The notes under the pieces were generated by a model, which was given only the letters and a program-made list of their open reading frames with translations, had not been told where the DNA came from and made no database searches. Of a stretch of 64,000 bases of DNA, positions 21,761 through 27,937 are shown one piece after another. Every line of letters begins with the position of its first letter. Within the stretch, counting starts at the first letter, position 1. Source of the stretch: Flavobacterium gelatinilyticum (GTDB lineage: Bacteria > Bacteroidota > Bacteroidia > Flavobacteriales > Flavobacteriaceae); assembly GCF_027111295.1 (NCBI RefSeq), contig NZ_CP114287.1, positions 3,286,001 through 3,350,000 on the forward strand. Reading direction: 5' to 3'. The position numbers and the translations under genes are program-made.

Positions 21761-23659
21761 ATGAGCGACGCTTTAAAACACGAATGTGGTATAGCCTTAG
21801 TCAGACTTCTTAAACCGCTTGAATATTATAAAGAAAAATACGGAACTGCTTTCTACGGAATCCAGAAGATGTATTTAATGATGGAAAAACAACACAACCG
21901 CGGACAAGACGGAGCGGGATTTGCCAGCATTAAATTTGATGTTGATCCGGGACAGCGATATATCAGCAGAGTGCGTTCTAACCACTCGCAGCCTATTCAG
22001 GACGTTTTTAAACAAATTAATGAGCGCATCAGTGAAGAATTAAAAGCCAATCCGGAACTAGGAGATGATATTAAGGAGCTAAAAGCAAATATTCCATACA
22101 TTGGAGAATTGTTTTTAGGCCACGTTCGTTACGGAACTTTTGGAAAAAACAGCATCGAAAGCGTTCACCCCTTTTTACGTCAGAGCAACTGGATGCATCG
22201 TAATTTAATTTTGGCAGGAAACTTTAATATGACAAATGTTAAAGAACTTTTCCAAAATCTGGTTGAACTTGGACAGCATCCTAAAGAAATGGCTGACACC
22301 GTTACGGTAATGGAAAAAATTGGTCACTTCTTAGACAAAGAAGTTATGCAATTGTATCAAGACTGTAAAGCCGAAGGTTATTCTAAAAAAGATGCTTCTC
22401 CGGTAATTGCAGAACGTCTGGATATTGCCAAAATATTAGCCCGTTCAGCTAAAAACTTAGACGGAGGTTACGCTATGGCCGGTTTATTAGGTCATGGAGA
22501 CGCTTTTGTTTTTAGAGATCCTGCAGGAATTCGTCCAGCTTACTTTTATCAGGATGATGAAGTTGTTGTTGTAGCTTCAGAAAGACCGGTTATTCAGACT
22601 GTATTTAACGTCCCTTTTGACAGTGTTCAGGAAATCGATCCGGGGAATGCCTTGATTATCAAAAAAAACGGAACCGTTACCATGAATCAAATCCTGGAAC
22701 CAACCGTAAAAAAAGCGTGTTCATTCGAAAGAATTTATTTCTCAAGAGGAAGTGATGCCGAAATCTATCAGGAGCGTAAAGATTTAGGTAAATTGATTTT
22801 ACCGGCAGTTCTTAAGGCAATTGACAGCGATACAGACAACACTGTTTTCTCTTATATACCAAATACAGCCGAAACTTCATTTTACGGTTTAGTAGAAGCT
22901 GCACAGGATTTCTTAAACCAAAGAAAGAACAATTACATTCTTGAAAACAGAAACACACTTACTGCAGAAACCCTTCAGGAACTTTTATCTGTAAAAATAC
23001 GCACAGAGAAAGTAGCAATTAAAGATGCTAAACTTAGAACTTTTATCACCGAAGACAGCAGTCGAGACGACTTGGTTGCACACGTTTATGACGTTACATA
23101 CGGCGTTATTAAGCCAGAAGACAACTTAGTTATAATTGACGACAGTATTGTGCGCGGTACGACGCTAAAAATGAGCATTATTAAGATGATGGATCGTTTA
23201 AATCCAAAACGTATTGTTATCGTTTCATCTGCTCCTCAAATTCGTTATCCGGATTGTTACGGAATCGATATGGCAAAACTAGAAGGACTTGTTGCTTTTA
23301 GAGCAGCTTTAACTTTATTAAAAGAGAGAAACTTATATCATATTGTCGATGAAGTATATGCAAAATGTAAAGCACAAGAAAACTTCGCCGATAAAGACGT
23401 TGTAAACTATGTAACTGAAATTTACAATCAGTTTACACAAGAAGAAATATCAGATAAAATCGCGGAAATGTTAAGTTCTCCGGAAATTAACGCCGAAGTA
23501 AAAATTATTTTCCAAACCGTGGAAGATCTTCATAAAGCCTGTCCTAAAAATTTAGGCGACTGGTATTTTACAGGTGACTACCCAACCCCGGGCGGAAATC
23601 GTGTTGTGAACCGTGCCTTTATGAATTTTTACGAAGGAAAAGACGCGCGAGCTTATTAA
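21761..23659 (+). CDS. purF: Amidophosphoribosyltransferase, long Bacteroidota form
   Basis: This enzyme makes phosphoribosylamine from PRPP and glutamine, the committed step of purine synthesis. The N-terminal class II glutamine amidotransferase has its Cys nucleophile at residue 9 (HECGIAL), with LGHVRYGTFG and AGNFNMTN. The C-terminal phosphoribosyltransferase has the PRPP loop VIIDDSIVRGTTLKMSI. The length of 632 is about 130 more than classical PurF, with additional helical segments in the amidotransferase part (residues about 75-105 and 165-210) and a C-terminal extension ending YEGKDARAY. No obvious Fe-S cysteines. The downstream gap contains two repeated RNA-like elements. Confidence 0.88.
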   Translation: MSDALKHECGIALVRLLKPLEYYKEKYGTAFYGIQKMYLMMEKQHNRGQDGAGFASIKFDVDPGQRYISRVRSNHSQPIQDVFKQINERISEELKANPELGDDIKELKANIPYIGELFLGHVRYGTFGKNSIESVHPFLRQSNWMHRNLILAGNFNMTNVKELFQNLVELGQHPKEMADTVTVMEKIGHFLDKEVMQLYQDCKAEGYSKKDASPVIAERLDIAKILARSAKNLDGGYAMAGLLGHGDAFVFRDPAGIRPAYFYQDDEVVVVASERPVIQTVFNVPFDSVQEIDPGNALIIKKNGTVTMNQILEPTVKKACSFERIYFSRGSDAEIYQERKDLGKLILPAVLKAIDSDTDNTVFSYIPNTAETSFYGLVEAAQDFLNQRKNNYILENRNTLTAETLQELLSVKIRTEKVAIKDAKLRTFITEDSSRDDLVAHVYDVTYGVIKPEDNLVIIDDSIVRGTTLKMSIIKMMDRLNPKRIVIVSSAPQIRYPDCYGIDMAKLEGLVAFRAALTLLKERNLYHIVDEVYAKCKAQENFADKDVVNYVTEIYNQFTQEEISDKIAEMLSSPEINAEVKIIFQTVEDLHKACPKNLGDWYFTGDYPTPGGNRVVNRAFMNFYEGKDARAY

Positions 23660-23723
23660 AAAAGTATTAAAAAAAGGTTAATTTGTGCATTTCATCGGTT
23701 TTTTTTGCCGTTCATCCTGTTTC

Positions 23724-23755
23724 TTTGGTAAAAATGAAATGCTGCAATACTTTTG
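23724..23755 (+). promoter_or_regulatory. Promoter of small RNA candidate copy 1
   Basis: TTTG at 23724-23727, 20 bases, TACTTTTG at 23748-23755: both elements and the spacing fit the Bacteroidota consensus. The next gene on this strand is far away, so it should drive the adjacent 77-base element. Confidence 0.6.
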
Positions 23756-23758
23756 AGA

Positions 23759-23835
23759 TACCATAACATTAGTAGGTTAAGTTTATGGTAGATTTGGGGC
23801 AAAAAGGGTGGAAGAAATTCCACCTTTTTTATTTT
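23759..23835 (+). ncRNA. Putative small RNA, copy 1 of a tandem pair
   Basis: The element has a first hairpin (TACCATAA / TTATGGTA, 16-base loop with AGTAGG), a linker GATTTGGGGCAAAAA and a second hairpin (GGTGGAA-GAAA-TTCCACC) followed by TTTTTTATTTT. The layout is promoter, two hairpins, terminator, about 75 nt. Copy 2 lies 187 bases on. The in-frame small ORF starting MVDLGQK is not preserved: all three substitutions between copies change the residue, whereas they preserve pairing. Confidence 0.6.
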
Positions 23836-23945
23836 ATACTACTCACAAGTATTTCTAAAATAACCTATTACTATCACTTTATCGGAAATATTTACCTTTC
23901 GTCTGAAAAGTTTCTTTACTACATACAACTCACATACCTTTACTA

Positions 23946-24022
23946 TACCATAAAATTTAGTAGGTAAGTTTATGGTAGATTTGGGGCAAAAAAGGTGGAA
24001 GATATTCCGCCTTTTTTATTTT
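23946..24022 (+). ncRNA. Putative small RNA, copy 2 of a tandem pair
   Basis: About 72 of 78 aligned columns match copy 1 by eye. The terminator stem reads GGTGGAA / TTCCGCC, in which an A-to-G change gives a G-U pair, and the loop differs (GATA). The upstream -7 element TACCTTTA (23935-23942) is at the same distance from the first hairpin as in copy 1 but departs from consensus in its last base, and no good TTTG lies 20 bases upstream. Copy 2 may be weaker or depend on read-through. Confidence 0.55.
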
Positions 24023-24122: not shown

Positions 24123-24734
24123 TTATTTATCTAAAGCAAATCTTCTTGCAACTTCTGTCCAGTTAATTACACTGAAGAAAGCTTCAATATAGTCTGGTCT
24201 TCTGTTTTGGTAGTTTAAATAGTAAGCGTGTTCCCAAACGTCCATTCCTAAGATTGGCGTTCCACCATTACCAGCAACTTCCGGCATTAATGGATTATCC
24301 TGATTTGGAGTTCCTACAACTTCTAATTTACCGCCTTTTTGAACAACTAACCAAGCCCATCCTGAACCGAATTGAGTTGCTCCAGCTTTAGCAAATTTTG
24401 CTTTAAACTCTTCAAATGATCCAAAAGAAGACTCAATAGCAGCTAATAAATCGCCTGTTGGCAATCCTCCTCCGTTTGGAGACATTACAGTCCAGAATAA
24501 ATTGTGGTTGTAGAAACCACCGCCATTGTTACGAACTGCTGCGTTTGATTTATCTAAATTAATTAAGATGTTTTCAATCGTTTTTCCTTCTAAATCTGTT
24601 CCTGCAATTGCTGCATTTAGATTAGTAGTATAAGCATTGTGGTGCTTTGTATGATGGATTTCCATTGTACGCGCATCAATATGTGGTTCTAATGCATCGT
24701 ATGCATAAGGTAATTGTGGTAATTCAAAAGCCAT
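24123..24734 (-). CDS. Superoxide dismutase (Fe/Mn family, Mn-type features)
   Basis: The 203-residue enzyme converts superoxide to oxygen and peroxide. Metal ligands by my count are H27 ([11 protein letters not shown]), H77 ([11 protein letters not shown]), D165 and H169 ([12 protein letters not shown]). The NQDNPLM segment with a Gln is the Mn-type second-sphere pattern (Fe types usually have the Gln elsewhere), so I expect Mn or cambialistic use. No signal peptide, so cytoplasmic. A possible -7 element TAAATTTG lies about 37-44 bases upstream. Confidence 0.95.
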
Positions 24735-27857: not shown

Positions 27858-27937
27858 GCCCGGATGGCGGAATTGGTAGACGCGCTGGTCTCAAACACCT
27901 GTGGGAAACCGTGCCGGTTCGACTCCGGCTCCGGGTA
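27858..27937 (+). tRNA. tRNA-Leu (anticodon CAA)
   Basis: The acceptor arms GCCCGGA / TCCGGGT pair fully (with one G-U), the D-loop has AATTGGTAGAC, the anticodon loop is CTCAAAC giving CAA, there is a class II variable arm, and the T arm is GCCGG-TTCGACT-CCGGC. The CCA end is only partly encoded (ACA, then A). The anticodon stem CTGGT / ACCTG carries a T-T mismatch at its second pair. A terminator follows directly. Confidence 0.93.

Follow-up and report, generated by a model that had tools for sequence, protein, structure and literature searches.

A tandem pair of predicted small RNA genes with paired LytTR-like operator boxes between purF and sod in Flavobacterium gelatinilyticum and its relatives

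Several near-identical small RNAs (sRNAs) can answer to one response regulator, as do the Qrr sRNAs under LuxO and the csRNAs under CiaR. Among Bacteroidota, the available part of one report describes FopS as a paralogous sRNA family of Bacteroides, about 65-70 nt long, with sigma-ABfr promoters and a terminator hairpin, whose genes are intergenic in nine cases, antisense in four and derived from a 3'UTR in one (PMC11697453). The accessible portion of a study of F. psychrophilum describes Rfp18 as conserved within Flavobacterium and as having an effect on two metalloprotease mRNAs (PMC9723704), and RNA-seq of F. columnare has yielded candidate sRNAs without an Rfam match, according to excerpts of that work (PMC5395568). 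LytTR regulators, as far as the available part of a further source sets out, recognise two repeats of 9-11 nt separated by spacers of 11-13 nt, the motif of YpdB being GGCATTTCAT (PMC4847170).

The window analysed here is the whole 64,000-nt stretch at positions 3286001-3350000 of the 5.83-Mb chromosome of Flavobacterium gelatinilyticum. Two copies of an element lie in it at 23759-23833 and 23946-24020, between the convergent genes purF and sod, whose names are those of the best NCBIfam models at scores below the curated cut-offs. From its sequence, each copy is predicted to encode an sRNA some 72 nt long, served by a promoter and an intrinsic terminator of its own. Bit scores of the copies refer to a covariance model (R1) built on 44 sequences, and those of the boxes to a position weight matrix (PWM) of the box pair. 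The features are as follows.

21761..23659, forward strand: purF, conserved upstream neighbour
23688..23696, forward strand: box A of copy 1 (CATTTCATC), at -71 from the element start
23708..23716, forward strand: box B of copy 1 (CCGTTCATC), 20 bp after box A
23724..23727, forward strand: -33 element TTTG of copy 1, followed by N20 and TACTTTTG
23748..23755, forward strand: -7 element TACTTTTG of copy 1, TAnnTT position conserved
23759..23833, forward strand: predicted sRNA copy 1 (model span), 106.2 bits with R1, whose training set includes it; fold z -4.40
about 23759-23761 to about 23830, forward strand: predicted transcript of copy 1
23760..23789, forward strand: 5' hairpin of copy 1, ACCAT/ATGGT stem with a conserved loop
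23790..23800, forward strand: linker AGATTTGGGGC of copy 1, nearly invariant, candidate seed
23801..23830, forward strand: intrinsic terminator of copy 1, 8 of 13 pairs with two-sided changes across the family
23875..23883, forward strand: box A of copy 2 (CACTTTATC), half of a 39.6-bit PWM pair
23895..23903, forward strand: box B of copy 2 (CCTTTCGTC), the other half of that pair
23935..23942, forward strand: -7-like element TACCTTTA of copy 2, at the same distance from the element as in copy 1
23946..24020, forward strand: predicted sRNA copy 2, 91.9 bits with R1; fold z -5.47
23977..23987, forward strand: linker AGATTTGGGGC of copy 2, where the linker complement matches exactly
24123..24734, reverse strand: sod, conserved convergent downstream neighbour

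The first-pass annotation of this DNA, made from the letters alone, had proposed a duplicated small RNA: two near-identical tandem copies, a TTTG-N20-TACTTTTG promoter before the first, a weakened -7 element at the same distance before the second, and convergent purF and sod on either side. All of these were recovered at the positions listed, with slightly revised spans for the copies. Its proposal of hairpins holds in that both copies fold better than their shuffles (0/200 as stable; z -4.40 and -5.47), but only about 5 bp of the 5' stem (ACCAT/ATGGT) are kept across the family. Of 121 distinct alignment rows, 41 have a non-standard pair at the next position, and the inner pair of the helix is often broken. 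With so short a stem, conservation of the large loop is one of sequence; the helix itself is nearly invariant and thus yields no covariation evidence. The conserved core, ACCATAACATaAGTAGGTTAAGTTyATGGTAGATTTGGGGC, is about 40 nt long and almost fixed across genera. Covariation comes from the terminator helix, in which 8 of 13 pairs have two-sided changes (167 such cells in the 121 distinct rows) in alignment A2, which had been fitted to the structure of the model; controls with slid partners showed double changes in as many as 7 pairs, but in no more than 14 cells. In the unfitted alignment A1, two-sided changes were seen in 3 pairs and 21 cells.

Homologues of the element, which the annotation had asked for in other genomes, are widespread and carry these covarying terminator stems. 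At E 0.01, a BLAST search with the 77-mer of copy 1 found matches in 171 of the 199 Flavobacterium genomes searched, eight of them weak (E above 1e-4). At the same threshold, R1 found the element in 369 of 396 Flavobacterium genomes (340 strong) and in 344 of 395 genomes of a family sample (332 strong), covering 184 of the 203 genera in that sample; strong here means a best E below 1e-6, counted by hand (369 less 29; 344 less 12). A second model (R2), built on 150 matches and with strong set at 65 bits or more, was run at E 0.001 on an order sample, where 33 of 146 genomes matched (24 in the family, the nine others all below 38 bits), and on a phylum sample, where 14 of 148 matched (11 in the family, three others at 31-35 bits). 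No strong R2 match was thus found outside the family in either sample. Carriers among the matches listed include Flavobacterium, Winogradskyella, Formosa, Aquimarina, Tamlana, Lacinutrix, Mangrovimonas and Salegentibacter. The element was also matched in a MAG that bears the name Lentimicrobium (L189) and may be misbinned. The conserved core, covarying terminator, fixed -7 element and conservation throughout the genus and family all favour the small RNA that the annotation had put forward as a candidate, whereas the operator boxes, the family-wide multicopy nature and the candidate regulator described below had escaped it.

The locus is also conserved. A PurF homologue lies upstream in 114 of 139 neighbourhood loci, which were not deduplicated, so that some genomes are counted twice; 88 of these read PurF(+)-RNA-Sod(-) and the other 26 share the upstream PurF. 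Tandem arrangements of the element are frequent. In two related genomes (L116 and L117), the sRNA lies away from purF with variant boxes still 20 bp apart, and an ORF beside it in L116 has a C-terminus like DnaJ/DjlA, below the NCBIfam cut-off. Flavobacterium orientale (L242, near 5737) has an sRNA pair away from purF, directly preceded by an ORF for a protein that by eye resembles a receiver domain.

The promoter geometry is held most firmly at the -7 element. Of 378 distinct upstream sequences, 345 have TAnnTT exactly at -11 relative to the element start and every one has it between -13 and -9; TTTG at -35, its distance in copy 1, is found in only 93. At multicopy Flavobacterium loci the later copies have a weaker promoter, mostly with CATACATTTAC replacing TACTTTTG, a form similar to the TACCTTTA of copy 2 here. 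By sequence, the element therefore has what marks an independent sRNA gene, a promoter at a fixed distance and an intrinsic terminator.

We then asked how the element relates to described RNAs. Over the whole window, Rfam 15 returned at gathering only a tRNA at 27858-27937, and the comparison with Rfam that the annotation had called for thus gave no family for the element; Flavo-1, which it had named and which we take to be an Rfam family, was absent from the 20 matches up to E 5. The best sub-threshold match was STnc40 (26.8 bits against a gathering score of 45), and it rests on the terminator. FopS (RF04319) was rejected, the two copies scoring 18.7 (E 0.37) and 15.3 bits against a gathering score of 56. 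As far as the available text on FopS goes, the two share size, promoter type, multicopy nature, a terminator hairpin and a Bacteroidota host, but the copies in the window stand in tandem at purF with a paired operator (PMC11697453). In the open-licence literature, we found no paper on the priA-rpsF LytTR gene discussed below or on a matching sRNA.

The chief doubt about the novelty of the element concerns Rfp18 or a sister Rfp RNA. It is a tentative but serious possibility that the F. psychrophilum member of the family is already known as Rfp11, 13, 15 or 18 (Guerin et al. 2021, PMC9723704). As described in the accessible portion of that study, these four are structured and conserved in other species, a homologue of Rfp18 is expressed in F. 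columnare, and Rfp18 and the other Rfp RNAs are, like the element here, structured sRNAs conserved in Flavobacterium. The same portion has Rfp18 pairing through a third stem-loop, however, whereas one unit here has two, and the words "LytTR" and "purF" occur nowhere in the main text of PMC9723704. F. psychrophilum was not among the matches listed in the scan of named genomes.

Whatever its name, the RNA most likely would act in trans on several mRNAs, pairing through the loop AGTAGGTTAAG and the linker GATTTGGGGC. A search of the F. gelatinilyticum genome for the linker complement gave 52 matches with at most one mismatch, against 31 for the control. Of the 50 non-self matches, four fall in the 60 nt that precede an ORF start (L315, L322, L332, which is inside another ORF, and L336), where about 1.3 were expected by our own estimate. 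This search brought out no convincing targets, which leaves some room for a rather unlikely alternative, namely that the RNA is a decoy for a protein or the ribosome and that its loop and linker form a protein site with no mRNA pairing. The nearly fixed stretch of about 40 nt across genera, which is above the usual need of a seed, speaks for a decoy; against it, there is no candidate protein, and a G-rich unpaired linker 5' of the terminator is typical of pairing sRNAs.

Upstream of the promoter, a box of the form C..TTYRTC (counted as C..TTYRWC) recurs with a 20-bp period. In 139 thinned upstream sequences drawn from 230 distinct ones, self-identity at lag 20 had a z of 18.7, the next lag, 21, reaching 3.9, and 107 boxes were counted against 7.8 in mononucleotide shuffles. 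Box positions in this set were most commonly -51 (36) and -71 (27) from the element start, and the exact spacing of 20 was seen in just 20 box pairs under the strict pattern, the next commonest spacing accounting for 4. Among distinct Flavobacterium upstreams, 84 of 140 have the strict two-box pattern. The PWM scores the pair of copy 1 at 53.3 bits, its locus being in the training set, and that of copy 2 at 39.6 bits. Both window copies thus share one operator, as in the logic of the Qrr genes; fewer copies do so in the thinned family set.

The 9-nt boxes and 11-nt spacer of both window copies have the layout of a LytTR site. Other LytTR sites have a period of 21-22 bp, and the boxes here, at 20 bp, are one short. 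Compared with the direct-repeat operators of YpdB and other LytTR regulators, as described in the available part of PMC4847170, the repeats are likewise about 9-10 nt with an 11-nt spacer and the half-site letters are nearly the same; the difference is that the predicted targets here are sRNA genes.

Elsewhere in the genome, the exact pattern TTYRTCG-N10-C-N2-TTYRTC occurs at three sites, both copies and one other (L041), and with one mismatch allowed the two-box pattern was rarer than its reversed control (45 vs 58). The L041 site, at 1497-1531 of that locus (G000:C1, about 3655590), has a PWM score of 8.2 and precedes an ORF that runs to 463 aa or more, predicted to be secreted from a start that by eye resembles a signal peptide; the ORF had no Pfam match. 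A further two-box site with a 20-bp period and one mismatch (L064 1497-1531; G000:C1, about 3561763; PWM about 0) precedes a gene for a thermolysin-type (M4) metalloprotease, with a TACTTTTA element seen by eye about 30 bp past the start of box B. This metalloprotease recalls the metalloprotease mRNAs given as targets of Rfp18 in the accessible portion of PMC9723704.

We next looked for a protein that might bind these boxes. The F. gelatinilyticum genome encodes 22 LytTR proteins over the cut-off, and no site with a positive PWM score was found in any of 23 LytTR loci of this genome (3 kb each). One of the proteins, L252, is 232 aa long with receiver and LytTR domains, and its gene lies between priA and rpsF-rpsR (NCBIfam names), with no kinase nearby in the stretch seen. 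Small genomes of the family narrow the choice. Of 17 that are RNA-positive, 15 have one or two LytTR proteins and two (G601 and G745) have none, while none was found in six small RNA-negative ones; many of these are draft assemblies with a completeness of 90-99%, in which a missing gene may reflect a gap. In the eight RNA-positive genomes with a single LytTR protein (G522, G693, G594, G584, G487, G793, G563 and G719), its best match in F. gelatinilyticum is L252, at 35-57% identity. Among the seven with two, an L252-type protein is present in G711, G818, G484, G583 and G289 and not in G321, the status of G671 being left unassigned in the tally.

Co-occurrence was then scored at 158 loci (54 RNA-positive, 77 negative and 27 weak), with rpsF as anchor and an L252-type protein within about 1.5 kb. 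The negatives comprise 50 of 51 RNA-negative family genomes (no rpsF was found in G723) and all 27 RNA-negative Flavobacterium, the negative status being inferred from gaps in the listed matches for 31 of the 51 and 7 of the 27. The weak set is 27 of 41 (12/12 family and 15/29 genus), and the 54 positives are non-random, namely family handles in order plus low-scoring and exceptional genomes (no rpsF was found in G434). The regulator lies near rpsF in 49 of 54 positive, 6 of 77 negative and 14 of 27 weak genomes, the positives without it at priA-rpsF being G321, G601, G745, G612 and G753. In 43 of the 71 negatives without a regulator, no priA was detected beside rpsF, so the regulator gene may be elsewhere; when the regulator is scored as absent only at loci with priA next to rpsF, it is present in 49 of 52 positive and 6 of 34 negative genomes. 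Since 12 of the 15 weak Flavobacterium genomes have the regulator, some weak matches are probably real but diverged copies.

The Fisher test at the tips (p 1e-23) is inflated by relatedness. A tree of 132 taxa was therefore built from three small ribosomal proteins, with the weak genomes omitted. On it, 4 of the 10 regulator changes share a branch with one of the RNA changes, which number 14; 0.76 were expected (p 0.00165). Nine independent pairs differing in the regulator gave eight concordant, none discordant and one tie, G321, in which the RNA is present and the regulator absent; restricted to priA adjoining rpsF, the result was seven, none and one tie. It is likely, from this genomic association, that the regulator of the sRNA copies is the orphan REC-LytTR protein of priA-rpsF. 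An operator bound by some other regulator, of the LytTR or another family, with an indirect co-occurrence, is unlikely: the 22 LytTR proteins of F. gelatinilyticum offer other candidates, and there are exceptions both ways, including the two RNA-positive genomes with no LytTR protein, but the priA-rpsF type is the only one found in eight small RNA-positive genomes, and the tests that take account of phylogeny point the same way.

Of 83 aligned regulator sequences, 69 retain the phospho-acceptor Asp of the receiver domain, four have a gap there and ten have S, E, K or A in its place (L351, L355, L356, L358, L359, L361, L362, L363, L366 and L524, the last from G462), these ten all coming from genomes of 2.2 Mb or less. 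Upstream of the regulator gene itself (57 thinned sequences), no 20-bp period stood out (z 1.6 at lag 20), though z was 4.2 at lag 21 and 3.9 at lag 31, with nine boxes against 4.2 in shuffles, which reached 12. In one sub-lineage (L483, L489, L505 and L481, from G477, G475, G449 and G485), a TTTATCGATG- or TTTAACGATG-like box stands upstream of the regulator, a hint of autoregulation there. Predicted pairing of the RNA with the start of the regulator mRNA, over 69 related sequences, averaged -8.8 kcal/mol for the loop, a small shift from the -7.95 obtained after mononucleotide shuffling (sd 1.89), and -9.71 against -9.36 for the linker.

It is very improbable that the conserved feature is a short ORF (MVDLGQK...) whose start lies in the stem. 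The commonest predicted peptides do all start with MVDLGQK, but their length and C-terminus vary with the A-run and the terminator, from 8 to at least 18 codons, and in alignment A1 the third positions of ATG GTA GAT TTG GGG CAA are fixed, the sole change, GAT to AAT, being nonsynonymous; the coding reading was rejected on these two grounds. A terminator-only repeat, the annotation's own refuting case, or a mobile one has next to no likelihood: the element is multicopy, its terminator is palindromic and the STnc40 match rests on that terminator, but it sits mostly at one locus beside purF, R1 finds only the two purF-sod copies in the F. gelatinilyticum genome, and promoter and operator are conserved. 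Searches of viral contigs gave no exact match to the core, phage matches were weak and scattered and no plasmid match was found, and a mobile element was rejected on this basis.

We consider it probable that the locus is a multicopy sRNA system driven by a response regulator, whose RNAs pair with mRNAs through the invariant loop and G-rich linker. Each copy would be a gene for a regulatory RNA of about 72 nt, transcribed from a sigma-A-type promoter to an intrinsic terminator. A LytTR response regulator, probably the orphan REC-LytTR protein encoded between priA and rpsF, would bind the two boxes 20 bp apart, directly upstream of the -33 region, and, as we infer activation rather than repression, would switch on all copies together. 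The copies being near-identical, tandem copies would add dose. Such a two-level switch would run from the regulator on its paired boxes, through near-identical sRNAs, to pairing with mRNAs. It would resemble the Qrr and csRNA systems in placing its sRNAs under one response regulator, and would differ from them in phylum and regulator family.

A broader reading, for which the chances seem evenly balanced, is that the priA-rpsF LytTR gene and the purF-sod array form an ancestral module of the Flavobacteriaceae, a regulatory axis that spans the family and is retained even in small genomes with no other LytTR system left; the receivers without a phospho-acceptor Asp in some small genomes would then mean that the input there is no longer phosphorylation. 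To our knowledge, characterised trans-acting sRNAs are few in Bacteroidota, and little is known of what the many LytTR regulators of these bacteria sense and control. An almost fixed 40-nt core over most of the sampled genera of this large family, together with a candidate regulator, may offer a tractable entry point.
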